Position numbers and translations under genes: made by a program
Notes under the pieces: model-generated
The model's database searches: none
What the model saw: the letters and a program-made list of their open reading frames with translations, nothing else
Told to the model about the DNA's origin: nothing
Source: Lachnospiraceae bacterium
GTDB lineage: Bacteria; Bacillota; Clostridia; Lachnospirales; Lachnospiraceae
Reading direction: 5' to 3'
NCBI GenBank assembly: GCA_022793065.1
Contig: JAAWCE010000027.1
Span: 1 to 64,000 of the forward strand
Length of the DNA stretch: 64,000 nt
Part shown: in pieces, positions 16,356-46,017 of the stretch
Numbering within the stretch: position 1 is the stretch's first letter
Layout: each line of letters starts with the position of its first letter

Positions 16356-17052
16356 AATGATACGCAGAGAAAATTTCCTTCTGCACAGGAAAGGGGACAT
16401 CCATTATATCGGTGGAGCGGAGGTATTGCCCCCGCCTTTGGAGGTGGAGAGAGAAAGTCAGGTAATCGGTGACCTGGGAACGGAATATGATGATGAAGCA
16501 AAGGCAATTCTGATAGAACACAATCTCCGTCTGGTAGTGTATATTGCAAAGAAATTTGACAATACCGGTGTGGGGGTGGAAGATTTGATATCCATTGGCA
16601 CCATTGGGCTGATTAAGTCCATTAATACCTTTAAACCTGATAAGAATATTAAATTGGCAACTTATGCGTCCAGATGTATTGAAAACGAGATATTGATGTA
16701 TCTGCGCAGAAATAATAAGACGAAGCTGGAAGTGTCTATTGATGAGCCCTTGAATGTTGATTGGGACGGCAATGAATTGCTTCTGTCGGATATTTTGGGA
16801 ACGGATGACGACGTGATCTATCGGGATATTGAAAATGAAGTGGAGCGCAAGTTATTATTGGGAGCTGTCAGCAAGCTTTCGGAGAGGGAAAAGAAAATTA
16901 TCAGTTTGAGATTTGGATTGGGAACAAAGGATGGGCAGGAAATGACACAGAAAGAAGTGGCGTCTCTGCTGGGAATCTCCCAGTCATACATATCCCGGTT
17001 GGAAAAAAAGATTATGCGGCAGCTCAAGAAGGAAATGAGCAACAATATTTAA
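16315..17052 (+). CDS. sigE: Pro-sigma-E, mother-cell sporulation sigma factor
   Basis: Sigma-E drives early mother-cell gene expression during sporulation. The 245 residues include a pro-region of about 30 residues before [14 protein letters not shown], close to the SpoIIGA processing zone of known pro-sigma-E. Region 2 reads [12 protein letters not shown] and [25 protein letters not shown]; region 4 ends in a helix-turn-helix ([22 protein letters not shown]). The start at 16315, inside spoIIGA, has GTGAGG just upstream and gives the expected pro-region length; the internal ATG at 16357 would remove half of it. Confidence 0.95.
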
Positions 17053-19125: not shown

Positions 19126-19905
19126 ATGACACAGGGTAAAGTGGAAATCTGCGGAGTAAATACTTCCAAACTACCATTGCTGAAAACGGAGGAGAAGGAG
19201 GCGCTTTTCCAACAAATTGAGGCCGGGGACACAAAGGCACGAGAAGCTTATATAGAAGGGAATCTGCGTCTTGTGCTCAGTGTCATTAAACGGTTTTCTT
19301 CCAGCAATGAGAATGTGGACGACCTGTTTCAGATCGGATGCATCGGACTCATCAAGGCCATAGATAATTTCGACTCATCCCTGAATGTAAAATTTTCAAC
19401 CTATGCGGTCCCCATGATTATAGGAGAGATCAGGCGTTTTTTGCGGGACAACAGCACCATGCGCGTTTCCCGTTCTCTCAAGGACACCGCCTATAAGGCA
19501 ATTTATGCAAGAGAGTCCCTGACCAGGAAAAACCTGAAGGAACCCTCCATCGAAGAAATTGCCACTGAAATAGGTATTTCCAAAGAGGATATTGCCTATG
19601 CACTGGATGCAATTCAGAATCCAATGAGCTTATATGAGCCCATTTTTACCGATGGGGGCGATACCCTTTATGTTATGGACCAGATCAGCGATAAGAAAAA
19701 CAGAGAAGAAACCTGGGTGGAACAACTTTCTTTAAGCGAAGCAATGAAAAGGCTCAACGACAGGGAACATGAAATTATCTCCATGCGTTTTTTTGAGGGC
19801 AAGACACAAATGGAAGTTGCCGAAGCAATCGGTATTTCCCAGGCTCAGGTTTCCCGTTTGGAGAAAAACGCCCTTCGCGCTATGCGAAATTATCTCACCG
19901 CCTAA
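19126..19905 (+). CDS. sigG: Forespore sigma factor sigma-G
   Basis: Sigma-G drives late forespore gene expression. The 259 residues begin with the family-specific KVEICGVNTSKLPLL, followed by region 2 (EGNLRLVLSVIKRF, FSTYAVPMIIGEIRRFLRDN) and the forespore hallmark MRVSRSLKDTAYKA. Region 4 ends with a helix-turn-helix (TQMEVAEAIGISQAQVSRLEK). The spoIIGA-sigE-sigG order is conserved in endospore formers; here three genes are inserted between sigE and sigG. The 230 bases upstream should hold a sigma-F promoter, but I could not pick one with confidence. Confidence 0.96.
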   Translation: MTQGKVEICGVNTSKLPLLKTEEKEALFQQIEAGDTKAREAYIEGNLRLVLSVIKRFSSSNENVDDLFQIGCIGLIKAIDNFDSSLNVKFSTYAVPMIIGEIRRFLRDNSTMRVSRSLKDTAYKAIYARESLTRKNLKEPSIEEIATEIGISKEDIAYALDAIQNPMSLYEPIFTDGGDTLYVMDQISDKKNREETWVEQLSLSEAMKRLNDREHEIISMRFFEGKTQMEVAEAIGISQAQVSRLEKNALRAMRNYLTA

Positions 19906-29691: not shown

Positions 29692-31974
29692 TTATACTTC
29701 CCTTGCTGCAAACTTGATTTCATTTTCCAGACTTTCAGGAACCAGCGTATTGCTGTTGCGAAGCTTTTGTGCCACTGCGTTCAGATGATGTACACGCTGG
29801 GCGGAAAGAATTTTCTGACGGTGAAGCAGTTCCGCATACATGGGGTTCTGCTCCAGGCTGCTGTCCAGAGAAGCCGGGAAAGGACAGTAGGTGAATAGGA
29901 TGCGGCGGGCAACTTTATTCAGTCTTGCGGAACCGTTTGATTCAAACAATATCCATATGATGTAATCTCGTACAAACATTTCCTTAAAACTGTTTTTCGC
30001 GCGCTGCAGGCTGATAAGTAATTTTTCCTTTGCGTCCTTACTCAATTCACTGTTCTTTCTGAAGAACTGTACATAATCGAAATATTCGCTGGTAAGAGAA
30101 GCGTCCGTCACATCGTTCCAGCGGCCGCCCTGAATTCGTTTACACAATTCCCAACGGAATTCGCCTGTGAGACGTACTATGGTTGTATTTAAGTCCTCCA
30201 TGTGGAATATGGAGAATATCATACGGCTTGGACTGTTACGTTTTTTACCGTCTATTTCCTGCCACATGGCGCCTTTGATTCCCACATTGGGCATCAGGAT
30301 AATATCCGGCAGAAATTCAAAATGTACGCTTTCCTTTCCCATAATCTGCATATTATCAATATCAAGACTTTCACGATAAAATGCGGAATAATCCACATGC
30401 CGGATCATATCCAGCGCTTTTTCAATCTTGTCCGGTGTGACATAGGTAGCATGAAGATCTTTCAATACATTTTCTGCCGTAAATAAGGGGCAGAATGTGG
30501 TCACACGTCCGTAAGTAATCTTATTCACGGATGGGAACATGTTCTGTAATTCGTAACGGACACGTTCCAGAGGATTATTTTCAAGGTCGGCAATGGCAGT
30601 AGGAGATAGATTGCTTTGGCGCTTTTGCTTATGGATATAATCAGTGAAATCTTCATCTAATTCACTGCGGCTGGGACTTTTTTCACCATTGTAAATGGCC
30701 ATCAGCCAATCGTAAAAAGTATAGACGCCGGACTGTCCGGGACTTTCCACACGGTGGGCCAAACGATATAGGGTGACGCAATTATCGGCCCCTGCCAGCT
30801 CTTCGTCCACATATCCAAAATAAAGGAACATCCGCACTGCAACAGGAAGATTGGGCGTCTGGATGGAATGTTCAAAAATGTTGGTGTATAAGGTATAAAA
30901 TTCATCTGTAATAGTTCTGCGAAGACGGTTTGTGACATCTTCGGTGGAATTTTTCTCTGCTGTGGCCTTATAAGCGTTCACATGCTGCCGGAAGGAATCT
31001 TCCAGATCAGGGTCAAGGTCTGCAAAAGTCAAAATTGTATCCAGAGAACCTGATAATTCCTGCATAATGGATGGTGCGGAATCATCTTCAGGTGAGCGCT
31101 GTTTTTGGGGCGCGGAGAGTTGCTGAATTTTTTCACGGAAAGACTGGACTCTTGCGTCAACCTGGGCTGCATCCAGGTCCGGACATTCTTCCAACAATAA
31201 AATCATTCTGGAGATGTTATCATATAGCCCGTCAGATTCGTTGTTGCTCTGGCCCAGACGATAATATAACTTTGTAAGCCGGTCAAACAGGTCGTTTCCG
31301 CTTTGGCTGAAATAACAATCCATAATCTGTGAGCGATAGCGATATTGTTCGTCCAGAACGGAATAGGTCTTACGGAAATCCAGAGAACCTTTTCGGAGGA
31401 TACCCAGCGAAAGTCCCGGTTCTTGCAGCATGATTCCGGAATTTGTACTTGCATAAATATGCTGCAGTGCAATGTAATAGCTGTTCAGCCATACGTCGGG
31501 GGATTCTTCCCCTAAGTAGGCATGTATGGAATCCAGATCTGCCAACGGACGCGGCTGGATTTTGTATTTGTCGCAGAGAGAGTTGTATTTCTCTAAATCT
31601 TCCGTAAGATTTTGATATAAACTAATACTGTTCATTTCTGAAACGGAACTTTGCGACATCAGAGCGTTAAATTGGCGGAACAGGGAAAGAATAAAAAGCT
31701 TTGCGATATCAGAACGCTTTTGAAGAATATTTTCAAGGGCTTCCATATTGCTCAAAGGAAAAGTCATTATTGTGGTATCTTCCAATGTGGTATAGCCAAG
31801 AAAATGAACTTCCGAGCAGATTTCGCAGATGCCTATTACATCCCCTGTTCCCAGTTGATAAGAGCCTCCGGGATATTCGGCTTTGACACGGCCCTGGGTA
31901 ATTAGATGGAGCGCGGTCATGGGCTGTTCGCGAAGGCATATAGTCGTTGATTTTTCTACAATATTTCCTGCCAT
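29692..31974 (-). CDS. Large protein with N-terminal cyclic-nucleotide-binding-like domain
   Basis: A 760-residue soluble protein. The first 110 residues have the Crp-type cupin pattern (ICLREQPMTALHLITQGRVKAEYPGGSYQLGTGDVIGICEI, then TTIMTFPLSNMEALENIL). The phosphate-binding cassette typical of true cAMP binders (GEL..RAA) is not evident, so the ligand may differ. The remaining 640 residues are mostly helical and I recognise no domain; there is no DNA-binding helix-turn-helix. A good ribosome binding site (GAGAGGG) precedes the start. The downstream neighbour on the same strand is none; the upstream one is the CoA-activase gene 290 bases away. Confidence 0.7.
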   Translation of the reverse strand: MAGNIVEKSTTICLREQPMTALHLITQGRVKAEYPGGSYQLGTGDVIGICEICSEVHFLGYTTLEDTTIMTFPLSNMEALENILQKRSDIAKLFILSLFRQFNALMSQSSVSEMNSISLYQNLTEDLEKYNSLCDKYKIQPRPLADLDSIHAYLGEESPDVWLNSYYIALQHIYASTNSGIMLQEPGLSLGILRKGSLDFRKTYSVLDEQYRYRSQIMDCYFSQSGNDLFDRLTKLYYRLGQSNNESDGLYDNISRMILLLEECPDLDAAQVDARVQSFREKIQQLSAPQKQRSPEDDSAPSIMQELSGSLDTILTFADLDPDLEDSFRQHVNAYKATAEKNSTEDVTNRLRRTITDEFYTLYTNIFEHSIQTPNLPVAVRMFLYFGYVDEELAGADNCVTLYRLAHRVESPGQSGVYTFYDWLMAIYNGEKSPSRSELDEDFTDYIHKQKRQSNLSPTAIADLENNPLERVRYELQNMFPSVNKITYGRVTTFCPLFTAENVLKDLHATYVTPDKIEKALDMIRHVDYSAFYRESLDIDNMQIMGKESVHFEFLPDIILMPNVGIKGAMWQEIDGKKRNSPSRMIFSIFHMEDLNTTIVRLTGEFRWELCKRIQGGRWNDVTDASLTSEYFDYVQFFRKNSELSKDAKEKLLISLQRAKNSFKEMFVRDYIIWILFESNGSARLNKVARRILFTYCPFPASLDSSLEQNPMYAELLHRQKILSAQRVHHLNAVAQKLRNSNTLVPESLENEIKFAAREV

Positions 31975-32173
31975 AGGTCCCTCTCAATTTATTATATTTA
32001 CACTCTTTCACTTGTTGGGATATGCCTAAGATGTATAAACAATAAAGAGTGTTTGGAATATTGCGGCAATCTTTTCTTTCATTATAAATATTTTAATAGA
32101 AAACCACAAGATAAATCATAGTCGAAAATCTTTGGGATGTCAAGGAATTTTGCGATATAGATATTATTTGGAC

Positions 32174-32248
32174 GCCGGATATTTAGGTTCTTTCCAATCT
32201 TTGGATATAAGATTGCGATACATGGGAAAGAACCTAAAGTTTTCCGGC
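32174..32248. repeat. 75-bp two-stage inverted repeat
   Basis: GCCGGA and TTTAGGTTCTTTCC on the left pair with GGAAAGAACCTAAA and TCCGGC on the right: 20 base pairs with one small internal loop. The central 29 bases can form an inner AATCTT/AAGATT stem. It lies just after the activase stop (minus strand). The absence of a T-run argues against a simple terminator. Confidence 0.8.
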
Positions 32249-32264
32249 AGATATTAAAAATCGT

Positions 32265-35200
32265 TTAAGCTTGTTTTATAAGGTTTTTTTGCGCCGTGGA
32301 GAGCATGAGCTTTATTCGGTTCAACTGATTTACTTCGCTGGCGCCGGGATCATAATCAATGGCAACGATATTGGACTCAGGGTATGCTTTCCGCAATGCT
32401 TTGATTACTCCTTTTCCCACCACATGATTCGGCAGACAGCCAAAGGGCTGCGTACATACAATATTTGGCACGTCGTCGTGAATCAGTTCTACCATTTCTC
32501 CGGTCAGAAACCATCCTTCTCCGGTCTGATTTCCGATAGACACAATGGGTTCCGCATAGGAAGCAATTTTCCGAATGGGTGTGGGGGGTGTAAAATGTTC
32601 TGATTTTTTAAATTCTTTCACCGCGGTGCCCCGAAGGAGATGCTCAATGGCCCAGATTCCCATAGAAGATACACGGGCTGTTTTCCGGCTCATTCCAAGA
32701 CTGTCCGCCTTGTAAATCTGATTGTAAAAACAATACAGCATAAAGTCAAGCAAATCGGGCACTACAGGTTCCGCCCCTTCCGCTTCCAACAGTTCTACCA
32801 GGTGATTGTTGCCCGCAGGAGAGAATTTCACCAGAATTTCTCCCACTACGCCCACACGGGGTTTTTTGATATTTTGTATGGGAACATTGTCAAATTCCCG
32901 AATCATATCACGGCATAATTTCTTAAATTTCAGGAAATGAATATGCTTTGCGGATACAAACGTCTGCAATTTTTTCAGCCATTTTTGGTGCAGGGCGTCC
33001 ACGCTTCCTGGGGTTTTCTCATATGGGCGCATCCGATAAATACAGCGCATAAGGATATCACCGAATTGGGCAGCCATGGCGGCGCGGATCAAAAGGTCGG
33101 CGTTTAGATGGAATCCAGGGTTGGATTCAATACCGCCAAGGTTGAGTGAAATTACGGGTATCTGGGCCATATCAGCCTTTTTGAGAGCCCGACGGATAAA
33201 GCCTACATAATTGGTTGCACGACACCCGCCCCCTGTCTGGCTCATAACGATGGCTGTGCGGTTTAAATCATATTTGCCGGATAACAATGCTTCCATAATC
33301 TGCCCAACCACCAGAAGCGAGGGATAGCAGGCGTCATTGTTCACATATTTCAGTCCCACGTCCACAGAGTGCTTGTTGTCATTGTCAAGTACTACGAAAT
33401 GATAACCACAGGCATTGAAAGCCGGCTCCATAATTTCAAAATGGATGGGAGACATCTGAGGGCAGATAATGGTATAATTCTGCCGCATTTCTTCAGTAAA
33501 AACAACTTTTTCAATGGCGTCGGAACAAAGTTCCCTTTCTTTCTGTATCTTTTCCCGTACCCGGATAGCCGAGAGCAGAGAGCGCACACGGATTCTTGCA
33601 GCGCCAAGATTGTTGACCTCATCAATTTTCAGGCAGGTATATATTTTACCGGAACCGGACAAAATATCATTAACCTGGTCCGTGGTGACAGCGTCCAATC
33701 CGCAGCCAAAAGAATTCAGTTGTATCAAATCCAGATTTTCCGTGGTCTTTACATAGCTTGCGGCGGCGTAAAGGCGGGAATGATACATCCATTGGTCGGA
33801 TACGATGAGAGGTCTCTCAGGGCGGCCTAAATGGGAAATGGAGTCTTCTGTCAATACTGCTATATCAAAGGATGTAATTAATTCCGGTATTCCATGGTTG
33901 ATCTCAGGGTCGATATGGTAAGGCCGTCCAGCCAGCACAATGCCTCTTTTACCGGTTTCTTTCAAGTATGCCAGAACTTCTTCACCTTTTTTTGAGATAT
34001 CCTGGCGGGCATGATCCAGTTCTTCCCAGCCGGCTTTTGCGGCGTTACGCACCTCCTCCGGGGAAAGCTGCGTAAATTCTTTTAACAGTGCGTCTGTGAC
34101 CGTTTTTAAATCCCGGAAAGACATAAAGGGATTGCGCAGTTTCACTTGCCCGCTGCTGATTTCTTCCACATTGTTCTTGATATTTTCGGAATAAGAGGTA
34201 ACGATGGGGCAGTTATAATGGTTATTGGCGCCTTCCACTTCATCCCGTTCATAGAACAGCGCGGGATAGAATATAAAGTCTGCTTTGTGATGAATCAGCC
34301 ATGTCACATGTCCATGAGCCAGTTTTGCCGGATAACACTCGGATTCGCTGGGAATGGATTCTATGCCAAGTTCGTAAATTTGGCGGTTGGATATGGGAGA
34401 GAGTATGACCCGATATCCTAATTTGGTGAAAAAGGTATGCCAAAAAGGATAATTTTCATACATGTTTAAAACTCTGGGTATTCCCACCGTACCTCTGGGA
34501 GCCTGATCCGCTTCTAAGGATGGATAGGAAAAAATGCGCTGCAATTTGTACTCAAATAGATTGGGCACATTATGGGCGTTTTTCTGTCCGCCAATGCCTC
34601 GTTCACAACGGTTGCCGGATACAAACTGACGTCCGCCGGAAAATCTGTTGATGGTAAGTCGGCAGCTATTGCTGCAGCCTTTACATTTAGCCATGGATGT
34701 ATCATACTGTAGCGCGCAGATTTTATCATAGGAGAGCATTGAGGTTTTATAGCCGGATTCAAATCGTTCCCTTGCGATAAGCGCGGCGCCGAAAGCCCCC
34801 ATAATGCCGGCGATATCAGGACGGATTGCTTCACATCCGGCTATTTTTTCAAAACTTCGCAGTACAGCGTCATTATAAAAGGTTCCGCCCTGTACCACGA
34901 TGTTTTCTCCCAGTTCGGAGGCGTCGGATACTTTGATTACCTTAAACAATGCGTTTTTTATGACAGAGTAGGCAAGGCCGGCAGAGATATCGGAGACACC
35001 GGCGCCTTCTTTCTGTGCCTGTTTTACTCTTGAGTTCATAAATACGGTACAGCGTGTCCCAAGGTCAATGGGATGTTCGGCAAATATGGCTGCTTTGGCA
35101 AAATCTTCCACACTGAAATTCAATGATTTTGCAAAGGTCTCGATAAAGGAACCGCACCCGGAAGAACATGCTTCGTTGAGCTGTACGCTGTCCACTGCCT

Positions 35201-36518
35201 GGTTTTTAATTTTAATACATTTCATATCCTGACCGCCAATGTCCAGAATACAGTCCACTGCAGGATTGAAAAAGGCGGCGGCATAGTAATGAGCTACCGT
35301 TTCCACTTCACCGTCATCGAGCAGAAAAGCGGCTTTCATGAGCGCTTCACCGTAACCTGTGGAACAGGAACGGACGATATGCACGTCTTCCGGCAGCATC
35401 TCGTGAATTTCTTTCAGGGAACGGATGGCGGTTTTCAGAGGACTGCCATCGTTGCCTGAATAAAAGGAATAGAGTAGAGAGCCGTCTTCTCCCACCAATG
35501 CGATTTTGGTGGTGGTGGAGCCGGCGTCAATGCCAAGGTATGCGTTACCTTTGTAGTCTGGCAGATTTGAAGTCCCTACATGTGCGCGGCCATGGCGCGC
35601 TTTGAAGGAATCATACTCCTTTTGGTCGGTGAACAAAGGCTCCATACGTTCTACTTCAAATTCCATTTTAATATCGGAAGAAAGTTTTGCCGCCATTTCT
35701 TCCGTTGTAATCCCGTTTTTTGCCTGATAATCTTCAGCAGCCAAAGCGGCGCCGATGGCGGCGAACAGATGTGAGTTATCGGTATCCACAATATGTTCTT
35801 CGTCCAAATGCAAAGTACGGATAAATGCAGTTTTCAGCTCAGACAGAAAGTGCAGGGGGCCGCCCAAAAACGCCACATGTCCCCGAATGGGTTTACCGCA
35901 TGCCAGCCCGGAAATGGTTTGATTTACCACTGCCTGAAATATGGAGGCGGAGAGATCTTCTTTGGTTGCGCCCTCATTAATCAAAGGCTGAATGTCTGTT
36001 TTGGCGAAAACGCCGCATCTGGCGGCTATGGTATAGAGAGATTTATAATTTTTGGCGTATTCGTTTAAGCCGGAAGCATCTGTCTGAATCAGGGATGCCA
36101 TCTGGTCGATAAAAGAACCTGTGCCGCCGGCACAGATGCCATTCATACGTTGTTCTACATTGCCTCCCTCAAAGTAAATTATTTTGGCGTCTTCTCCGCC
36201 TAATTCGATTGCCACATCGGTTTTGGGGGCAAGTTCCTTTAAAGAAGAGGCCACCGCAATGACCTCCTGGGTGAAAGGTACGTTCAGGTGATTGGCCAAA
36301 GTTAGGCCGCCCGACCCGGTAATCATGGGGAATAATGTCAGATTTCCCAATTGTCTGTATGCTTTGTCCAAAAGCTTAGAAAGGGTCTCCCGGATATTGG
36401 CATAGTGGCGCTCATAATCGGAAAACAGAATATTGTGCCCTTCGTCCAGCATTGCAATCTTGACTGTGGTGGAACCGATATCAATGCCAAGAAATGCAGT
36501 TTTATTGGTAAAGTCCAT
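32265..36518 (-). CDS. Giant BadF/BadG/BcrA/BcrD-type CoA-dehydratase activase
   Basis: A 1417-residue protein with two ASKHA-type activase domains in tandem: [16 protein letters not shown] at the start and [16 protein letters not shown] near residue 325. Each has an ATPase glycine motif ([29 protein letters not shown]), the second with cysteines like those that hold a 4Fe-4S cluster in HgdC. A DUF2229-like domain follows ([19 protein letters not shown]), then a region resembling 2-hydroxyacyl-CoA dehydratase subunits ([37 protein letters not shown]). Activases inject a high-energy electron into dehydratases; the target of these giant fused forms is not established. AGGAAGGAG precedes the start. 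Confidence 0.88.
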
Positions 36519-36578
36519 GTGATACTCCTTCCTGAATCAATGTTACGATAGTACATAGGTGTTTCGACATTCTATGAC

Positions 36579-36607
36579 ATTATAGTATACTGTAAAGTAA
36601 AATGCAA
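36579..36607 (-). promoter_or_regulatory. Promoter for the activase gene
   Basis: On the minus strand TTGCAT and a perfect TATAAT are 17 bases apart. An exact 0A box (TGTCGAA, minus strand, 36563-36569) lies just after the predicted start point, a position where Spo0A binding would block transcription. The 367-bp gap between 36518 and 36886 holds this and the promoter at 36753, and nothing else I can support. Confidence 0.55.
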
Positions 36608-36752
36608 GTAGCCATAAAATCATACTTTTTGGAGTATATCTATGGCAATTTGCCGCTTTATTTGGGCAAAAAACAGTCCATAATATAAAACAGTGAAACC
36701 TATGAAAAGTTTATAAAATTACTGATTTTTATATTAAAATGGAAAAGTTTGG

Positions 36753-36781
36753 TTTACTTATGGAAATAGGGATGATAAAAT
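36753..36781 (+). promoter_or_regulatory. Promoter for the rhomboid-like gene
   Basis: TTTACT and TAAAAT are separated by 17 bases, about 100 bases before the start codon. Confidence 0.5.
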
Positions 36782-36885
36782 AAATATGCGGATCAGCCAT
36801 GTATCATGACGAATTGGAAATAGTTGTCTGTGTCAGAGGCGCGGCGGTTTCGCTGATTTGAGGCGAAGATGGAGGATGAATCTGG

Positions 36886-37737
36886 ATGAGTAATTTTGAA
36901 AAGAAATTTGGAAAGTATGCCATTAAAAATTTGTCGTTGGTATTAATTCTGTGTTACGTGGCCGGATATGTTATGAAGCTGATTAATGGTGATTTCCTGT
37001 CGTATCTGACCCTGAATCCCTATGCCATACTGCATGGTCAGATTTGGAGATTGTTTACATGGATTATTGTACCGCCCGGCTCCCCGGACTTTTTTACGAT
37101 CATTATGCTTTTATTTTATTACAGTATCGGAAACAGTCTTGAAAATACCTGGGGGACATATCGCTATAATGTATATATTTTGTCTGGAATATTGTTTACC
37201 ATCATAGGAAGTTTTCTGTGGATGGGGATACAATATATGATGGAAGGCGGCCATATAGATGCAGCCTACGCCAATCCGTTATTTGCCTATGACTCCATGT
37301 ATTTTAGTACTTATTATATCAATATGTCTATATTTCTGGCATTTGCGGCAACATTTCCCAATGTGCAGGTGCTTTTGATGTTTTTGATTCCTGTGAAAGT
37401 TAAGTGGATGGGAATTTTGTACGGCGTGTTGTTGGTGTATGATTTGTTCAGGGGATCTTTTGTAATCAGAATTGCCATTGGGTCCTCCCTTTTGAATTTC
37501 GTTATCTTTTTTGTTACGTCCCGAAATCATATTCATATGTCGCCGAAACAGATTCGCAGAAGGGCGGAATTTAAGCATGATATCAAGAAAAATTCCAGGA
37601 TAACAAAGCATAAGTGCGTGGTGTGCGGTCAGACGGATGAGGATGATCCGAACCTGGAGTTCCGGTTCTGTTCAAAATGCAACGGAAATTATGAGTATTG
37701 TCAGCAACATTTGTTTACGCATACACATGTTAAGTGA
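36886..37737 (+). CDS. Rhomboid-like membrane protein without catalytic residues, zinc-ribbon tail
   Basis: A 283-residue membrane protein with about six hydrophobic segments. The WR motif of rhomboids (GQIWRLFTWIIVPPG) and the following LENTWGTYRYNVYILSG are clear. The GxSG serine motif and the histidine of the last helix are absent; the matching places read FAYDSMYFSTYYINMS and IGSSLLNFVIFF. It is therefore probably a pseudoprotease. The C-terminal 70 residues are cytoplasmic and carry two CxxC pairs (CVVCGQ, CSKCNGNYEYCQQH), likely binding zinc. It heads a plus-strand run with the sigma-like gene 72 bases downstream. Confidence 0.75.
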   Translation: MSNFEKKFGKYAIKNLSLVLILCYVAGYVMKLINGDFLSYLTLNPYAILHGQIWRLFTWIIVPPGSPDFFTIIMLLFYYSIGNSLENTWGTYRYNVYILSGILFTIIGSFLWMGIQYMMEGGHIDAAYANPLFAYDSMYFSTYYINMSIFLAFAATFPNVQVLLMFLIPVKVKWMGILYGVLLVYDLFRGSFVIRIAIGSSLLNFVIFFVTSRNHIHMSPKQIRRRAEFKHDIKKNSRITKHKCVVCGQTDEDDPNLEFRFCSKCNGNYEYCQQHLFTHTHVK

Positions 37738-37809
37738 GACATGGCCGGTGGGAATGGATTTGAGGTTTTTTGATATGAAAATCATAGAGTAGGACCAGGG
37801 GGGATAAAA

Positions 37810-38652
37810 ATGGGAGATATATCTGAAGAGCTTTTGTTTGTCCGTACTTTGGAAAAGGTGCGGCAAATGGCCAGAGAACAGGGAAATTATATTCACAGCC
37901 AGCGGGTGAAAGAGGAATTTTCCGGTTTGAATTTAAACGATAGGCAGCTGCAAATGATTTTTGATTATTTGGCAAAATATAATATTCGTACAAATGATTC
38001 AGAAGCGGAAGCCGACAGCTTAAATGAAAACAAATTTTTGGCGGGAGAAGTTTCTTTGGCTGCAGACGAAGAAACAGAAGATGTTTTGACGGAAACGGAG
38101 AGAGATTACCTTCAGACTTATCTGGATGAGATTGGGTTGCTGCCAGTGTATGACGGGGAGACTTTGAATGGAGCTGTTTTAGCTGCAATGGCAGGAGATG
38201 GAGAAGCACAGAGACGTTTGATGGAGAGTGCTCTAAAAGATGTGACGGATATTGCGAAACTGTATGTGGGACAAGGGGTTTTGATTGAAGATTTAATTGG
38301 GGAAGGCAATATGGCCCTTGCAATGGAACTGCAAACCTTAGGCAATGGAGAACATAAGGGTTCTGTCATAAGTTATTCCGAATTGCGCGGAGAACTGGGT
38401 AAAAAGGTCATGGATGCCATGGAAGGGATCATCCGCGAGAATGTCCACAATGTGAAAGCGGACAAGAAAGTGGAAGAGAAGGTGAATCTGGTAGCGGATA
38501 AGGCCAGGGAGCTTGCGGAAGCATTGCGAAGGAAAGTGACGCCGGAAGAACTGGCTGAGGAGACGGATCTGCCAATAAAGGTGATATGGGATGCCATGAG
38601 GATGAGCGGCTATAAAATAGAAGATCTGGTCATGGAAGAAGGGCAGGAATAG
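37810..38652 (+). CDS. Truncated sigma-70-like protein
   Basis: A 280-residue protein that resembles parts of a primary sigma factor. Residues 5-62 look like region 1.1 (NYIHSQRVKEEFSGLNLNDRQLQMIFDYLAKYNIRT). Residues 95-130 match region 1.2 (TETERDYLQTYLDEIGLLPVYDGETL) and 131-172 regions 2.1-2.2 (LYVGQGVLIEDLIGEGNMALAM), the part that binds the beta' clamp helices. Residues 240-273 resemble region 3 (RRKVTPEELAEETDLPIKVIWDAM). The -10 recognition helix (2.3-2.4) and region 4 are missing. It may act as a sigma mimic, a competitor or a transcription modulator; it should not be called a functional sigma factor. GGGG/GGAT precedes the start. Confidence 0.75.
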   Translation: MGDISEELLFVRTLEKVRQMAREQGNYIHSQRVKEEFSGLNLNDRQLQMIFDYLAKYNIRTNDSEAEADSLNENKFLAGEVSLAADEETEDVLTETERDYLQTYLDEIGLLPVYDGETLNGAVLAAMAGDGEAQRRLMESALKDVTDIAKLYVGQGVLIEDLIGEGNMALAMELQTLGNGEHKGSVISYSELRGELGKKVMDAMEGIIRENVHNVKADKKVEEKVNLVADKARELAEALRRKVTPEELAEETDLPIKVIWDAMRMSGYKIEDLVMEEGQE

Positions 38653-38698
38653 TCTGGTTTAGTCATGGTTAAGGGAAATTTAAAATTAGGAGAATGGC

Positions 38699-39127
38699 GT
38701 GCAAAAGACAGTTTATGAAGATTATAAGTACAGCATGCAGGATACAAGTCGTGTCTATGTGGGAAGTAAATATACCCTCAGGGAATTGCTGGAGGCAGAT
38801 GAGGTTTTGTTTAAATTTCGCATGCTGGTGGAAAGGTATATTTTACCGGAAGCAGATTTGGAGGATACGCTGGAGACGCATTTGTATTATTTGTCTTCAG
38901 AAAGCTTTTTAGTAAAGCTTTATACACAGATGAAGGCAAAAGTGAAGATTAATGTGATAGAAGAGAAAAAGAATCGGTTTGGTTTGGGGCGGAATGGAAA
39001 GAAGCAATATGTGACAAAACTGCTGACAATCGAGCAGCTTGTTAAGATACCGCCGGAAGAAAAGGAAAAGAAGGGAATGGTGATTCAGGAGTTATCTGTC
39101 AGTAAGTTGGCGTTGGCCGGAATGTAA
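38699..39127 (+). CDS. Hypothetical protein downstream of the sigma-like gene
   Basis: A 142-residue soluble protein I do not recognise. It starts with GTG after TAGGAG. The first 80 residues are acidic and probably helical (YTLRELLEADEVLFKFRMLVERYILPEADLEDTLETHLYYL); the second half is basic, with KKNRFGLGRNGKKQY. It lies 46 bases after the sigma-like gene and 44 before the M16C peptidase, so the three are likely co-transcribed. Working together is inference only. Confidence 0.7.
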   Translation: MQKTVYEDYKYSMQDTSRVYVGSKYTLRELLEADEVLFKFRMLVERYILPEADLEDTLETHLYYLSSESFLVKLYTQMKAKVKINVIEEKKNRFGLGRNGKKQYVTKLLTIEQLVKIPPEEKEKKGMVIQELSVSKLALAGM

Positions 39128-39171
39128 GGAGAGAATTGCCGTTCAAAATACATGATATAAGGAGAGAGAGA

Positions 39172-42087
39172 ATGAAGGTAGAAGAACTGTCAAGTTATGA
39201 AGTCATTGAAAAAAAGGAGGTTGCGGATATCAACAGCACAACCTATCTTTGCAGACATAAGAAGACCGGCGCCAGGGTTGCGTTGATTTCCAATGATGAT
39301 GAAAATAAAGTTTTTTATATAGGATTCCGTACCACGCCCAAGGACTCCACCGGAGTAGCGCATATTCTGGAACATTCCGTACTCTGTGGGTCAAAGGAGT
39401 TTCCTGTGAAAGACCCTTTTATAGAGTTGGTCAAGGGATCATTGAATACCTTTCTGAATGCTATGACCTATCCGGACAAGACGGTGTATCCTGTGGCAAG
39501 TTGTAATGATAAGGACTTCCAGAATTTGATGCATGTGTATCTGGATGCCGTATTTTATCCAAATATTTATGAGAAGGAAGAGATTTTCCGCCAGGAGGGA
39601 TGGCATTATGAATTAAATGAAGCGGAAGAGCTAATCTATAATGGGGTGGTCTATAATGAGATGAAAGGCGCGTTTTCATCTCCCGACAGCGTGCTGTACC
39701 GGGAGATTACATCCGCATTGTATCCTCATACTACCTATGGTTGTGAGTCCGGCGGCGACCCGGCAGATATTCCGGAGTTGACTTATGAACAGTTTCTGGA
39801 TTTTCACAGAACATATTATCATCCTTCCAACAGTTATATTTATCTGTATGGAAATATGGATATGGCGGAGAAGCTTGCATTTATTGATGAGCATTATCTG
39901 TCCCGTTATGATTCATTGAATGTGGATTCCACAGTGACCATGGAGCCGGCTTTTGCCGAGCCAGCCCGCAGAGTGAGAGAATATCCTGTCAGCGAAGGTG
40001 AAGACGAGGAAGAAAATACCTACCTGTCGTGGAATTTGTCCGTGGGTGACAGCCTTGACAGGGAACTTTATATTGCGTTCAAGGTGTTGGATTTTGTGCT
40101 GTGTACGGTTCCGGGAGCGCCGTTAAAGAAGGCGCTGATTGATAAAGGGATTGGAAAGGATGTATTTAGCCTCTACGATACCAATCTCAGGCAGCCTTGC
40201 TTCAGCGTGGTGGCAAAGGGCACTTCTATAAAGCATGAAGAGGAATTTAAGGCGGTTATTGCGGAAGTTTTGTCTGATATTGTGAAAAACGGTTTTAACA
40301 AAAAAGCGTTGTTGTCCGCAATCAATCTTTATGAATTTAAGTACAGAGAAGCGGATTACGGAAGGCGTCCAAAGGGACTGATGTATGGTCTCCAGATGAT
40401 GGACAGTTGGCTGTATGATGATAGTAAACCATTTATCCATATTGAGGCCAACGATACGTATGCGAAGCTGCGGGAAAAGGTGGATGAGGGATATTTTGAA
40501 AGTCTAGTGGAGAAATATCTCCTTCATAACACCCATGCCGCTGCTGTGATTTTAAAGCCCAGAGTTGGAATGGCCGCGCAACAGGAAGAAGCGTTGAAGA
40601 AAAAGTTAGCGGGTATCAAAGGCAGTATGTCGGAAGCGCAGCTTATGGGTGTGCGCAGCATGACAGAAGCGCTGACAGCATTTCGGGAGACGGAGGACAG
40701 GCCGGAAGATATTGCCAGAATTCCTCTTTTAACAAGAGCGGATATGAAAAGGGAAGCGCTTCCTTTGAATAATGCAGAAAGAATGTTAGGGGATGTACCG
40801 GCGCTTTACCACAATGAATTTACAAATGGAATAGGTTATCTTACGCTGATGTTCAGAGTACATGATATTCCCCAGGCGTATTTTCCTTATATGGGTATTT
40901 TGGTCAATGTATTCTGCCATTTGGATACGGAACATTATTCTTATGCCGAATTGTGCAATGAGATAAATTTGGTTACGGGCGGCGTGAACAATGTGTGGAG
41001 TTCTTATGGCGACGCGGTGGACCCTGATAAATACCAGGCAATGTTTGAGGTCAATGTGAAGGCTTTGTGCGGTAATTTGGATAAGGCATTGGAATTGATT
41101 GGGGAAATGATTCTGACAAGCAATCTGACAGATACCAAGAGGCTGAAAGAGATTTTGGCGGAAAATAATTCCAGGATGCAGGAGTATATAATGGAAAACG
41201 GGCACAGTGTTGCTGTGTCGAGAGCGCTTTCATACGGTAGCCCCCAGGACGCGGCGATGGATGTATTGGAAGGAATCAGCCAGTATCGTCTGACCACAAG
41301 GCTTGAGAAGGATTTTGAACAGGAAAAAGAGCAGTTGGTGGATAAACTGCAGACTTTATGTAAGATGATTTTCCGTCCCGAAAATCTTATGGTGGATTTT
41401 ACAGGGGATGAAGAGACGTTTGGAAGCCTGGAATCTCCTGTGGCCGCGCTGAAAGAAAAATTGCATACCTGCCAAGTGGAACAGGGTGAATTTCTTCCGG
41501 ATACTTCCAGGAAAAATGAGGGATTTATGAACGCCGGACAAGTGCAATATGTGTGTCGCGCAGGTAATTTTGTGCGGAAGGGTCTTGCATATACAGGAGT
41601 GCTGAACGTATTGAAAGTCATGATGGGATATGAGTATTTGTGGACCAATATACGTGTAAAGGGCGGCGCTTATGGCTGTATGTGTGAATTTTACAGGAAC
41701 GGTTCGTGCTATTTTGTTTCTTATCGAGACCCTAATCTGGAGCAGACAATTGAAGTGTATGAAAAGGCGGCAGATTTTATTGCAAATTATCAGGCAAGCG
41801 AAAGAACCATGACCCAGTATATCATCGGGACATTTAGTAATCTGGACATACCGCTGTCGGCGGCTGCCAGAGGACGCCGTTCTAAAATGGCATATTTGAA
41901 GGGACTGACTTTTGATATGATTCAGAAAGAACGGGATGAGGTGCTGCATGTGACGCCGGAAGATATTCAGGGTACGGCTGCGTATATCAGAGCGTTTATG
42001 GACGAGAATCATTTGTGCGTAGTGGGAAATGAGCAAAAAATCAGGTCCCAGGCAGATAAGTTTATGAAAATTGAGAACCTTTTCTAA
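39172..42087 (+). CDS. M16C-family zinc metallopeptidase (PreP/falcilysin-like)
   Basis: A 971-residue insulinase-superfamily peptidase with both halves of the fold in one chain, as in PreP. The inverted zinc motif is H64-ILE-H68 (VAHILEHSVLCGS), and the distal glutamate region VYNEMKGAFSSPDSVLY follows. The C-terminal half contains the substrate-binding pattern RVKGGAYGCMCEFYRNGSCYFVSYRDPNLEQT. Such enzymes degrade short peptides in a closed chamber. There is no signal peptide, so it should act in the cytoplasm. ATG 39172 follows AAGGAGAGAG; the track start 12 codons earlier is not needed. A terminator follows. Confidence 0.93.
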   Translation: MKVEELSSYEVIEKKEVADINSTTYLCRHKKTGARVALISNDDENKVFYIGFRTTPKDSTGVAHILEHSVLCGSKEFPVKDPFIELVKGSLNTFLNAMTYPDKTVYPVASCNDKDFQNLMHVYLDAVFYPNIYEKEEIFRQEGWHYELNEAEELIYNGVVYNEMKGAFSSPDSVLYREITSALYPHTTYGCESGGDPADIPELTYEQFLDFHRTYYHPSNSYIYLYGNMDMAEKLAFIDEHYLSRYDSLNVDSTVTMEPAFAEPARRVREYPVSEGEDEEENTYLSWNLSVGDSLDRELYIAFKVLDFVLCTVPGAPLKKALIDKGIGKDVFSLYDTNLRQPCFSVVAKGTSIKHEEEFKAVIAEVLSDIVKNGFNKKALLSAINLYEFKYREADYGRRPKGLMYGLQMMDSWLYDDSKPFIHIEANDTYAKLREKVDEGYFESLVEKYLLHNTHAAAVILKPRVGMAAQQEEALKKKLAGIKGSMSEAQLMGVRSMTEALTAFRETEDRPEDIARIPLLTRADMKREALPLNNAERMLGDVPALYHNEFTNGIGYLTLMFRVHDIPQAYFPYMGILVNVFCHLDTEHYSYAELCNEINLVTGGVNNVWSSYGDAVDPDKYQAMFEVNVKALCGNLDKALELIGEMILTSNLTDTKRLKEILAENNSRMQEYIMENGHSVAVSRALSYGSPQDAAMDVLEGISQYRLTTRLEKDFEQEKEQLVDKLQTLCKMIFRPENLMVDFTGDEETFGSLESPVAALKEKLHTCQVEQGEFLPDTSRKNEGFMNAGQVQYVCRAGNFVRKGLAYTGVLNVLKVMMGYEYLWTNIRVKGGAYGCMCEFYRNGSCYFVSYRDPNLEQTIEVYEKAADFIANYQASERTMTQYIIGTFSNLDIPLSAAARGRRSKMAYLKGLTFDMIQKERDEVLHVTPEDIQGTAAYIRAFMDENHLCVVGNEQKIRSQADKFMKIENLF

Positions 42088-42108
42088 ATTTCGTCGTTAT
42101 ATAAAGAT

Positions 42109-42145
42109 AGACCGGGATGTTTGTTTCGCACATTCCGGTCTTGTT
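42109..42145 (+). terminator. Terminator after the M16C peptidase gene
   Basis: AGACCGGGATGT pairs with ACATTCCGGTCT (one G-T wobble) around nine bases. The T-run is short (TTGTT), so it is weaker than the others. Confidence 0.6.
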
Positions 42146-42246
42146 GATATGATGGGCATCCAACAGGATCCGAAAGGTTCAGGCAGGAAGGAGCAGCAGC
42201 GGGTGGATTTTGGGAAGGATGCTTGTGAAAAGGGAGGAGTGAGAGT

Positions 42247-43347
42247 ATGAAAGGTAACAGATTTCAGAGGATGGGCAACGTTATAATGGGCAAAGGCTTC
42301 AGAATGAAAAAGGGAAGGGCGCTTGCGGCGGCTTTCCTGTTGGCTGCCATAATGTGTACGGGGTGTGGGGGCAGTTATGACGCGGGCGCCCCCAGATCAT
42401 CGGAATATAATTCTTCTGACAGTGTAAATATGTCTACGGCTGTGGAAGGGGGAAGTTATGACAATGGAAGTTCCGGAATGATGCCAAAGAATGATGTGAG
42501 CACAGAAGGAATATTGGATGAACGGAAATTAATTAAGACCGTGGAACTTGAGCTTGAAACAAAAGAATTTGAAAAGACAATGACCACCATAGAAACGCAG
42601 ATTCGAGAAATGGGTGGGTATATAGAAACTATGGATACATACAATGGCAGCGCTTATTCCGGCAGCCGCTCATCCAGATATTCTAATATGACCATTCGGA
42701 TACCTTCTTCAAAAATAAATGATTATATGGATTCCATTTCCGGGGCGGGCAACATGATCAGGCGCAGCGACAAAGTGGACGATGTCACGCTGTCTTATGT
42801 AGATATGGAAAGTCGCAGGGATACGTTGCGCACGGAGCAGTCCAGGCTGTTAGAATTTCTGGAAAAGGCAGATTCTGTGGAAACCATTATTACATTGGAA
42901 GAACGTCTCTCGGAAGTACGTTATCAACTGGAAACGATGGAATCTCAGCTTCGCACCATTGATAATTTGGTGGAATACAGTACGGTAAATGTGAAAGTCA
43001 CTGAGGTGAGGGAATTGACTCCTGTGGTGAAACAAACGGCATGGGAGCGGATCAGCTTAGGATTCCTGGGCAGTCTGCAGAATATTGTAGATGGAATTGT
43101 GGAAATATGTATATGGTTTGTAATTAATATTCCGTATTTGGTTCTTTGGGCGGCGTTCATTGGGATAGTGGTATGGATTCTTCGGAAAAGAGGACGGAAA
43201 CGTCAAAAGAAAAATCAGAATGATACCTGGGAGAAAGATTTGCACAGGAGGGAGCAGACAGGTCCGGAAATAAGACAGCAAGAGAGCCAAATACCACAGC
43301 AGGAAAGTCAAATGCAGCAGCAGAATAAGGAAGACGGCACAAACTAA
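42247..43347 (+). CDS. DUF4349 domain lipoprotein
   Basis: A 366-residue membrane-anchored protein. An N-terminal signal segment (ALAAAFLLAAIMCTGC) ends in a lipobox-like CTGC, so Lgt should modify it. The DUF4349 core is recognisable: LIKTVELELETKEFEKTMTTIETQIREMGGYIE, NMTIRIPSSKINDYMDSI and a coiled coil (LLEFLEKADSVETIITLEERLSEVRYQLETMESQL). A second membrane segment near residue 285 (CIWFVINIPYLVLWAAFIGIVVWILRK) leads to a basic and Q/E-rich cytoplasmic tail with a short repeat (QQESQIPQQESQMQQQ). The family's role is unknown. A strong GGGAGGAG site precedes ATG 42247. Confidence 0.87.
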   Translation: MKGNRFQRMGNVIMGKGFRMKKGRALAAAFLLAAIMCTGCGGSYDAGAPRSSEYNSSDSVNMSTAVEGGSYDNGSSGMMPKNDVSTEGILDERKLIKTVELELETKEFEKTMTTIETQIREMGGYIETMDTYNGSAYSGSRSSRYSNMTIRIPSSKINDYMDSISGAGNMIRRSDKVDDVTLSYVDMESRRDTLRTEQSRLLEFLEKADSVETIITLEERLSEVRYQLETMESQLRTIDNLVEYSTVNVKVTEVRELTPVVKQTAWERISLGFLGSLQNIVDGIVEICIWFVINIPYLVLWAAFIGIVVWILRKRGRKRQKKNQNDTWEKDLHRREQTGPEIRQQESQIPQQESQMQQQNKEDGTN

Positions 43348-43376
43348 AGGGTTGTGAAAAAGAAAGTATTACAGAA

Positions 43377-43404
43377 TTGATTTTTCTGAAAAAGGTGTTA
43401 TAAT
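43377..43404 (+). promoter_or_regulatory. Promoter for era
   Basis: TTGATT and a perfect TATAAT are 16 bases apart, about 60 bases before the TTG start of era. Confidence 0.65.
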
Positions 43405-43466
43405 CTTAATATTCGGTTCCGTACAAAGATTGGTATGCGCACCTTAAGCGCGCAAAGGGGGTAAGT

Positions 43467-44420
43467 TTGAAAAAGGAAGATACTCAGGAAAATAATTTGG
43501 AAACTACGATTGGGGAAGACGGGTATAAATCGGGTTTTGTGACTTTGATTGGCAGACCCAATGTGGGAAAATCTACATTGATGAACAAGCTGATAGGACA
43601 AAAAATTGCCATTACATCCCAAAAGCCTCAAACCACCCGAAGTCGTATCCGCACGGTGCTGACGTTAGAAGAAGGACAGATTATTTTCCTAGATACACCC
43701 GGTATTCATAAATCCAAAAATAAACTGGGAGAATATATGGTGAATGTGGCGGAGCATACGTTAGAAGAGGCGGACGTCATATTGTGGCTGGTGGAGCCGA
43801 CGTCATATATCGGAGCGGGAGAACGTCATATCATTGAAGAATTAAAGCAAGTGAAAACGCCGGTGTTCCTTGTGATTAACAAGACGGATACGGTGAAACG
43901 GGAAGAGATTCTTCGGTTTATCGACGTTTACCGAAAAGAGCTTGATTTTGCAGAAGTGGTGCCGGTTTCTGCGCTTCGGGGGCACAATACGGATGAATTG
44001 GTAAAATGTATTCTGAAATATCTGCCTCAGGGGCCGGCCTTTTTCGATGAAGATACGGTTACGGATCAGCCCATGCGTCAGATTGTGGCGGAATTGGTCA
44101 GAGAAAAAGCGCTGCGTCTGTTGGAGGAAGAAATCCCTCATGGGATTGCGGTGGAGATTGAAGGTATGAAGGAACGAGGCAAAATCTGTCATATTGATGC
44201 GGTAATTGTCTGTGAGAAAGAATCCCATAAGGGTATCATTATCGGTAAGGGAGGACAGATGCTGAAAAAAATCGGTTCCGCGGCGCGCAGGGAGATGGAA
44301 GAGCTGCTGGAAATGCAGGTGAATCTGAAATTGTGGGTGAAGGTAAAAAAGGATTGGCGGGACAGCGATTACCTTCTGAAAAATTTCGGATATCATCAGA
44401 AGGATATTTCTGGCAGTTAA
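43467..44420 (+). CDS. era: GTPase Era
   Basis: Era is the essential GTPase that binds the 3' end of 16S rRNA and helps small-subunit maturation. The 317 residues have a short extra N-terminus of about 20, then G1 GRPNVGKST, the switch region TTRSRIRTV, G3 DTPG and G4 NKTD, and a C-terminal KH domain (GIIIGKGGQMLKKIGSAARREMEELL). The start is TTG after AAAGGGGG. Location before recO is conserved in Firmicutes. Confidence 0.96.
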   Translation: MKKEDTQENNLETTIGEDGYKSGFVTLIGRPNVGKSTLMNKLIGQKIAITSQKPQTTRSRIRTVLTLEEGQIIFLDTPGIHKSKNKLGEYMVNVAEHTLEEADVILWLVEPTSYIGAGERHIIEELKQVKTPVFLVINKTDTVKREEILRFIDVYRKELDFAEVVPVSALRGHNTDELVKCILKYLPQGPAFFDEDTVTDQPMRQIVAELVREKALRLLEEEIPHGIAVEIEGMKERGKICHIDAVIVCEKESHKGIIIGKGGQMLKKIGSAARREMEELLEMQVNLKLWVKVKKDWRDSDYLLKNFGYHQKDISGS

Positions 44421-44553
44421 AAATAAGCAGCATTGCGCATAGAATAAAGAAAAATGCAGACCCTATGAGTAAAAGCATTTGGTAGGAATGGCGGTTGGAA
44501 TTGATCTGATGTTGAGAATCATTCTAAAGTTGATACTTAAGGGGACGCGGAAG

Positions 44554-44742
44554 ATGAACACACAGGAAGAAAAATATTGGAAGAAATTTGAAAATAGCGG
44601 CAAAATTGAAGATTATCTGTCATTTATAGCAGGCGTACAGGTAAGAGAAGGCGAATATGCAGGAACATATAGAAGTAACAGGGATCATTTTGAAGCAGTC
44701 TCCCGTGGGGGAGTACGACAGACATATCAGCCTTTTGACTAA
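44554..44742 (+). CDS. Small protein between era and recO, overlapping recO
   Basis: A 62-residue ORF from ATG 44554 (NTQEEKYWKKFENSGKIEDYLSFIAG). Small YqzL-type proteins sit at this place in other Firmicutes, and the first 30 residues have a similar W/F-x-x-F-x-x-[ST]G-x-x-x-x-YL pattern. Its last 86 bases overlap recO in another frame, which is long for such a pair. The track start at 44479 adds hydrophobic residues without support. AGGGGACG precedes the ATG. Confidence 0.55.
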   Translation: MNTQEEKYWKKFENSGKIEDYLSFIAGVQVREGEYAGTYRSNRDHFEAVSRGGVRQTYQPFD

Positions 44743-45307
44743 GGAGAGGGGAAAGATATCAGCTTTTGCCAGAGGAGCCCGCAAATCGGGAAATCGTCTG
44801 GCAGCGGCCACCATGCCTTTTTCTTTCGGCAGTTTCAGGCTGTATGAGGGGAAAAACTCATATACATTGGTGGAGGCGGATATTCGGAATTATTTTGAAG
44901 AATTACATTCAGATTATATTGGCGTCTGTTATGGTATGTATTTTGTGGAAGTAACGGATTATTTTACACGGGAGAATAATGATGAGAGAGAAATGATGAA
45001 GCTTTTATATCAGTCTCTCAGGGCGCTCAGTGTGTCGGCTTTGCCCAATGATCTTGTGCGCTGTATTTTTGAATGTAAATCCATTGTGATAAACGGGGAA
45101 TTTCCCGGACCGCCCCAGAATGTGAATTTAGAGGAATCCACGATTTATGCGCTGCATTACATAGGGGCCAGTTCCATTGAGAAGTTGTATACATTTACCG
45201 TGACGGACAGCGTTTTGGCGCAGTTAAAGGATGTTTCGGCGGGATATATGAAACGTTTTGTAGGGCGGGATTTTAAGAGCTTGGAAGTTCTGAAAACTCT
45301 GTGTTGA
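44657..45307 (+). CDS. recO: DNA repair protein RecO, zinc-less form
   Basis: RecO works with RecF and RecR in loading RecA at gaps. The 216 residues have the N-terminal OB fold start (EVTGIILKQSPVGEYDRHISLLTKERGKISAFARGARKSGNRL) typical of the family. It is shorter than the usual 240-250, and the four-cysteine zinc cluster (CxxCG and its partner) is absent; the matching region reads CKSIVINGEFPGPPQNVNLEES. The start lies inside the small upstream ORF. Confidence 0.9.
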   Translation: MQEHIEVTGIILKQSPVGEYDRHISLLTKERGKISAFARGARKSGNRLAAATMPFSFGSFRLYEGKNSYTLVEADIRNYFEELHSDYIGVCYGMYFVEVTDYFTRENNDEREMMKLLYQSLRALSVSALPNDLVRCIFECKSIVINGEFPGPPQNVNLEESTIYALHYIGASSIEKLYTFTVTDSVLAQLKDVSAGYMKRFVGRDFKSLEVLKTLC

Positions 45308-45332
45308 AAAAGCTGTTGTTTTTTGATACAAT
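45304..45332 (+). promoter_or_regulatory. Promoter for the lipoprotein and glyS
   Basis: TTGAAA and TACAAT are exactly 17 bases apart, starting at the recO stop codon; the lipoprotein start is 33 bases further. It probably also serves glyS, 19 bases after the lipoprotein gene. Confidence 0.65.
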
Positions 45333-45365
45333 AATACACAGAATTTCTGGAAAGGTATATGGGAG

Positions 45366-45998
45366 ATGAAGGAAAAATTTGGATGGCTTATGGCATTGGC
45401 TTGTTTTTTTGCCGTATTTTTGACAGGATGCGGGGAAATGAAGATGCCGGAGGACGTAAGCGAACAGACTGTGTACATCAGCAGGGAAGGGCAGATTACA
45501 CTATGGCTGGTAACGGATTTTAAAGGGTTGGATTATAAAATATCGGAGCTGACCTCCATGGCGGTCCAGGAAGTGACGAAATTTAATTCCGGAAGGGCCC
45601 AGAACGATGTTGTGACGCTGGATAAGGTGGAAACGATACCGGATGACAGCAGTAAAGTTGCTGTAATTTATAAATTCGGAAATTGGAAAAGCTGCACGGA
45701 ATTTATTGGAAACGAATTGTTTTATGGGACAAACGAACTGTTTTATGGTACGGTCAGTGAGGCTTTCGCTGCAGATTATGGCAGCGGCGCCATATTAAAA
45801 GATGTGAAGGATCATTCGCTTTATACGGAGGCGCAGTTGAAGCAGGCCGCTGATAAAATGCTCATAGTCACCGATGTGAAGGCGAATGTGTACTGTCCTG
45901 GCAAGGTGGCTTATATCAGCGAGGGCTGTAAAATGAACGAAGATGGAAGTGTAAATACCTTCGAGGTAGAGGGGCTTGCATATATTTTATTAAAATGA
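45366..45998 (+). CDS. Putative lipoprotein of unknown function
   Basis: A 210-residue protein with a signal peptide ending in a clear lipobox ([17 protein letters not shown]), so it should be anchored outside the membrane. I do not recognise the mature domain ([40 protein letters not shown]). A 21-bp tandem duplication gives [14 protein letters not shown] near residue 115-129. It lies in front of glycyl-tRNA synthetase with a gap of 19 bases. Confidence 0.8.
45711..45752 (+). repeat. 21-bp tandem duplication in the lipoprotein gene
   Basis: Two copies of AACGAAYTGTTTTATGGKACR (three differences) encode NELFYGT twice in frame. It looks like a local slippage duplication. Confidence 0.9.
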
Positions 45999-46017
45999 CG
46001 AAAGGGATGATTTTGGC

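Follow-up and report, generated by a model that had tools for sequence, protein, structure and literature searches.

A sigma-like protein family of Lachnospiraceae with predicted RNA polymerase contacts and no apparent means of promoter recognition

Introduction

What can a protein built like a primary sigma factor do once the parts that read promoters appear to be gone? The question is raised by a gene on the forward strand at 37810..38652 of the window, by which we mean the whole 64,000-nucleotide stretch of Lachnospiraceae DNA analyzed here. The gene is a conserved open reading frame that starts with ATG and encodes 280 amino acids followed by a stop. The initial annotation had placed the frame at these same coordinates, where we found it, and had described a sigma-70-like protein that keeps regions 1.1, 1.2, 2.1-2.2, and 3 and lacks 2.4 and 4.

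The distinction matters for what such a protein could do at RNA polymerase. Holoenzyme assembly is reported to begin when region 2 settles on the clamp helices of the beta' subunit and region 1.1 occupies the DNA channel; in later steps, region 3 attaches to the beta protrusion and region 4 moves into the exit channel (PMC12000874). Here, we compare the protein and its relatives with SigA by computation, region by region, and ask which of these contacts are likely to survive.

Results

Descent from SigA and domain anatomy

Homology between the sigma-like protein and SigA begins at region 1.1 and extends to the end of region 3.1. Its residues 19-265 match RpoD (NCBIfam PRK09210, E 1e-19), Bacillus subtilis SigA (7ckq) is matched over residues 7-265 (E 2e-15), and its C terminus falls at the point at which the 3.2 finger of SigA would begin. 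Among 30 diverse members of the family, Pfam matches are found for region 1.1 in 18, for region 2 in 28, and for region 3 in all 30, and from region 2.1 to region 3.1 the alignment of 54 members with 19 SigA sequences is almost free of gaps. Judged by the homology of regions 2 and 3, the protein is a member of the sigma70 family by descent, and the regions that had been listed as kept are indeed homologous to and colinear with those of SigA.

Alignment to SigA places region 1.2 at residues ~93-124 (38086..38181; SigA 97-123) and region 2.1 at residues 132-152 (38203..38265), while region 3.0-3.1, recognized by Pfam Sigma70_r3, spans residues 215-267 (38452..38610), all on the forward strand like the features below. 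For residues named after the sigma factor itself we use E. coli numbering, anchored on W433/W434/Q437 (PMC12000874); the numbers differ by a constant 242, without gaps, from those of SigA in genome G006.

Region 1.1 (residues 5-62; 37822..37995), a feature of primary (group 1) sigma factors, is present in the family, as the initial annotation had supposed for the N-terminal part. An hhalign comparison of family N termini with SigA N termini gave a probability of 98.8, an E value of 1.3e-16, and a score of 81, against a maximum score of 19 for 100 column-shuffled control alignments. In the window protein alone the region falls under the Pfam cutoff (E 0.2), and it is at the level of the family that it becomes clear. 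Two genomes, G229 and G460, hold two SigA-like matches of ~380 and ~415 amino acids together with a short sigma-like one of ~210 amino acids; as the last is matched only from region 1.2 onward, region 1.1 may be missing there.

The window copy carries a 22-residue insertion (residues ~59-80; 37984..38049) that is a gap in every other row of the alignment and is modeled with pLDDT below 50 at residues 69-79. A further insertion, of 6 residues at ~38356-38376, is common to locus L003, and relative to SigA the window copy has ~7 extra residues in the 2.3-2.4 segment. In a quick-method tree, the branch of the window copy has a length of 0.59, compared to 0.07 for its nearest relative. Together, the insertions and the long branch mark the window copy as an atypical, fast-evolving member.

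An invariant triad at the predicted polymerase contact

Region 2.2 (residues 153-177; 38266..38340), predicted to contact the beta' clamp helices, is the most conserved stretch of the family. Its DLIGEGN motif (residues 161-167; 38290..38310) holds D403, E407, and N409, which correspond to D161, E165, and N167 of the window protein and are identical in all 56 relatives, some of them just 22% identical to the window protein. Across regions 1.2-3.1 of the 56 members, the only fully invariant columns are these three and a glutamate of region 3.1 (E247 in the window protein). D403 and E407 correspond to D77 and E81 of sigma-32, residues that touch the beta' clamp helices in the open complex of that factor (PMC10216364). 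The true sigma factors SigE and SigG of the window vary at E407 and N409 (DLISIGT and DLFQIGC), indicating that the sigma fold alone does not demand the triad. Its invariance is the strongest indirect evidence from sequence that selection preserves core binding. As Q406 is Gly in the clade of the window protein and M413 is variable, affinity for polymerase may be weak.

A fold search with the predicted structure ranks sigma factors first, the best match being a SigA-RpoC model, and a search of a viral fold library gave no match below E 1e-3. The whole-chain TM score to sigma structures is low, ~0.3, because the domain arrangement of the model differs.

Loss of promoter-reading features

The 2.3-2.4 segment (residues 178-214; 38341..38451) aligns to SigA almost without gaps and lacks the W-dyad and other residues that contact the -10 element. 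Positions matching SigA fall to 13% here, compared to 42-44% in region 2.1-2.2; the mean net charge shifts from +3.7 in SigA to -4.9 in the family (range, -10 to 0; milder in the window copy, at ~-1 by manual count), and the number of aromatic residues drops from 6 to 1. Not one of the 56 members has W at the dyad positions, T440 is replaced by Glu in 36 of them, and Q437 is replaced by Asp or Glu in 27. The AlphaFold model (mean pLDDT, 87.7; pTM, 0.62) places the segment inside a single long helix, residues 189-239. Because the segment aligns and is modeled as a helix, it is not right to call region 2.4 absent, as had been done. What stands of that description is the loss, on alignment, of the residues for -10 recognition and melting from a segment that is itself kept.

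The absence of region 4 holds more fully. A profile of SigA from region 3.2 to region 4, run over six frames of window positions 30001-46000 and of 56 related loci, found nothing above 7.4 bits, compared to 231 bits for the SigA control, and no region-4 homologue lies within ~5 kb of the gene in the window or at the 56 loci. A scan of three whole genomes brought up no obvious orphan region 4, but its output was crowded with helix-turn-helix (HTH) proteins. The family is conserved and none of the members read has a region 4, a point that had been raised for checking. Most members end 0-20 residues past region 3.1, and a few divergent ones have other tails, acidic or rich in Cys and His. Those of L108, L113, L073, and L076 are His- or Cys/His-rich and metal-binding in look, and that of L110 is acidic and ~100 residues long. 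By the features compared, with core-contact residues retained but neither the -10 residues nor a 3.2 finger or region 4 present, the protein appears not to be a working sigma factor.

Distribution and selection

With a diverse profile, the sigma-like family is found in at least 61 of 150 genera of the family of the window, taken as Lachnospiraceae; the count comprises 58 genera among the matches listed, a few of which are contig-edge or interrupted frames, and 3 more. The assignment to Lachnospiraceae follows from L001, a relative named as an uncultured Lachnospiraceae bacterium, which groups inside the main clade and is followed by the same gene. In a class-level sample of ~60 families outside Lachnospiraceae, no recognizable member was found, the strong matches being full-length SigA bar one at a contig edge or partial. 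Among congeners at least 90% complete, all 16 sampled have matches, with shortened frames in G002 and G023.

There is about one short member per genome beside SigA in eight genomes examined. The protein is not the housekeeping sigma, as a full-length SigA is also present in the genome of the window and in the genomes examined. Between the closest congeners, dN/dS is ~0.04-0.16; these values are approximate, as synonymous sites approach saturation, and indicate purifying selection. Outside region 2.2 the family evolves fast, with branches many times longer than those of SigA, and the quick-method tree leaves the origin of the family unplaced, with long branches and SigE unresolved beside it.

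Sporulation sigma genes of the SigE and SigG types lie at window positions 16315-17052 and 19126-19905, from which it follows that the organism has the usual sporulation sigmas. A sporulation role for the sigma-like protein was considered and rejected, since the gene is also kept in eight genomes without SigF- or SigG-level matches; it is not a sporulation accessory and is independent of those sigmas. An origin in phages or plasmids was likewise rejected: the best matches there are below 60% identity, those with annotation that we checked are rpoD, rpoS, or other sigma-70 genes, and no member of the family was recognized.

Neighboring genes

The gene is preceded by one for a hydrophobic, rhomboid-like membrane protein (36886..37737) and followed by one for a 142-amino-acid protein of unknown family (38699..39127), beyond which lies a large peptidase-like gene (39136-42087), presumably of the M16C type, all on the same strand. 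This order recurs in ~20 genera of the main clade, often with short or overlapping junctions; the membrane protein adjoins in ~20 genera and the 142-amino-acid protein in most of the main clade. Divergent members are located elsewhere and have no common neighbor, adjoining, for example, what we take to be mutY-like or CNNM-like genes. That no single neighbor is shared family-wide speaks against an obligatory partner encoded next door.

The membrane protein resembles rhomboid or Der1 proteins by eye, without an obvious GxSG serine, and has an invariant C-terminal Cys/His cluster; it matches no convincing Pfam family. The 142-amino-acid protein is modeled confidently (pLDDT, 91.6). It was considered as a separate region 4 or a known anti-sigma factor and rejected, with no match to a Pfam or HTH family and a different predicted fold. 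Its model shows only a weak similarity to molybdenum hydroxylase flavoprotein subunits (E 5e-4; TM, 0.55).

Discussion

Because relatives occur across Lachnospiraceae, we think it probable that the protein is dedicated to regulating RNA polymerase rather than working as a sigma factor. We propose that a paralogue derived from SigA turned into a polymerase-binding regulator. Its docking site on core RNA polymerase would be the beta' clamp helices, contacted by region 2.2, while region 3 could extend to the beta protrusion and region 1.1 could fit into the DNA channel. With regions 1.1, 2, and 3 kept and with -10 reading, the 3.2 finger, and region 4 gone, such a protein should occupy core without forming a promoter complex, and as no promoter complex is possible, it would take core in place of SigA. 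Initiation would then be lowered or redistributed. On balance, and with modest confidence, we regard the protein as a core-binding competitor of sigma or a polymerase-holding factor. Binding to polymerase, competition with SigA, and their timing in the life of the cell are what we infer from these comparisons. Without region 3.2 and region 4, sigma contacts that stabilize the core complex are lost, and the protein might compete poorly.

The clamp-helix site is also compatible with action at another stage. The protein might join the elongating polymerase after SigA leaves and tune pausing or termination in the manner of NusG/RfaH, since sigma and RfaH/NusG-type factors share the beta' clamp helices and the retained regions 1.1, 2, and 3 need no promoter; emphasis has been placed on how alike sigma and elongation factors are in function, acting by way of the beta' clamp helices and the beta protrusion (PMC12000874). 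However, region 1.1 is kept, and in the holoenzyme this region lies in the downstream DNA channel (PMC12000874), a space that DNA itself takes up during elongation. No feature of the sequence points specifically to elongation, and we consider this role unlikely, if still worth keeping in view. Less probable again is sigma mimicry, in which the protein would bind an anti-sigma factor or another ligand of sigma region 2, in place of polymerase, and thereby release a true sigma, by analogy with PhyR and NepR. A kept sigma-2 surface with lost DNA reading is what a mimic needs, and anti-sigma factors such as CsfB bind sigma at region 2. But the residues that are frozen here are polymerase contacts, neither a receiver nor any other regulatory domain is present, divergent members share no neighbor gene, and the gene persists in the eight genomes that lack SigF and SigG.

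The remaining explanations keep the protein as a sigma factor or deny it a function. Other residues might read a -10-like element, perhaps with the help of an activator and without region 4. Regions 1.2, 2, and 3 are in place for this, and region 2 is the minimal promoter-recognizing part of sigma; moreover, loss of the W-dyad is tolerated by nonprimary sigmas, sigma-32 having H and W (PMC10216364). Yet region 4 and region 3.2 are absent, and the basic and aromatic positions that contact DNA are now acidic or variable and differ from member to member, unlike a DNA-reading surface. An unusual working sigma of this kind seems to us quite improbable. B. subtilis provides a precedent for a split sigma, with region 4 on a separate protein, in SigO-RsoA (PMC10141391). 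We think it very improbable that the present protein is half of such a pair, given that no region-4 homologue lies within ~5 kb in the window or at the 56 loci, that the adjoining 142-amino-acid protein matches no HTH family and is predicted to fold differently, and that the scan of three genomes gave no obvious orphan, crowded with HTH proteins though it was. Just as hard to credit is a decaying, functionless duplicate. The missing domains, the long branch of the window copy, and the frames shortened in congeners G002 and G023 would fit decay, but residues are invariant family-wide, dN/dS is far below 1, and gene order is conserved in ~20 genera.

A search of the literature, with most subscription journals outside its scope, returned no description of the family and no matching region-4-less, truncated, decoy, or mimic sigma. 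The family is real, conserved, lineage specific, and undescribed in the literature searched. We put forward, tentatively, that it may represent a class of general transcription factor not described before: a paralogue of the primary sigma without promoter recognition, present at about one copy per genome in a large family of gut bacteria, that has become a dedicated occupant of core, whether as a competitor or as a holding factor that plugs the channel. If polymerase binding is true, this would be a chromosomal, sigma-derived regulator in a dominant gut family in which docking has been separated from promoter reading. It would also offer a natural test of sigma regions 1.1, 2.2, and 3 in the absence of DNA recognition and a candidate for how gut anaerobes throttle transcription.

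Comparison with known systems sets the family apart from each of them. It shares with SigA/RpoD the homologous, colinear regions 1.1, 1.2, 2.1-2.2, and 3.0-3.1 and an identical core-contact triad, but it has lost the residues that recognize and melt the -10 element, stops short of the 3.2 finger and region 4, and evolves many times faster. Like SigO-RsoA of B. subtilis, it presents a sigma-like chain without some of the usual domains; unlike that system, it has no region-4 partner in the neighborhoods of the 56 loci. PhyR-type mimics likewise carry a sigma-like domain with no transcription-starting activity of its own, fused to a receiver domain. The sigma-like protein has no match to a receiver domain, regions 1.1-3 and the insertion accounting for the whole chain, and it is kin to the primary sigma rather than to an ECF sigma, with polymerase-contact residues kept. 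NusG/RfaH-type factors dock on the beta' clamp helices, the site proposed for the sigma-like protein, but they are unrelated to it in sequence, whereas it is derived from sigma. The proposed effect, polymerase kept from promoters, would be closest to that of 6S RNA and HelD, polymerase-holding factors that are other molecules, neither of them derived from sigma.
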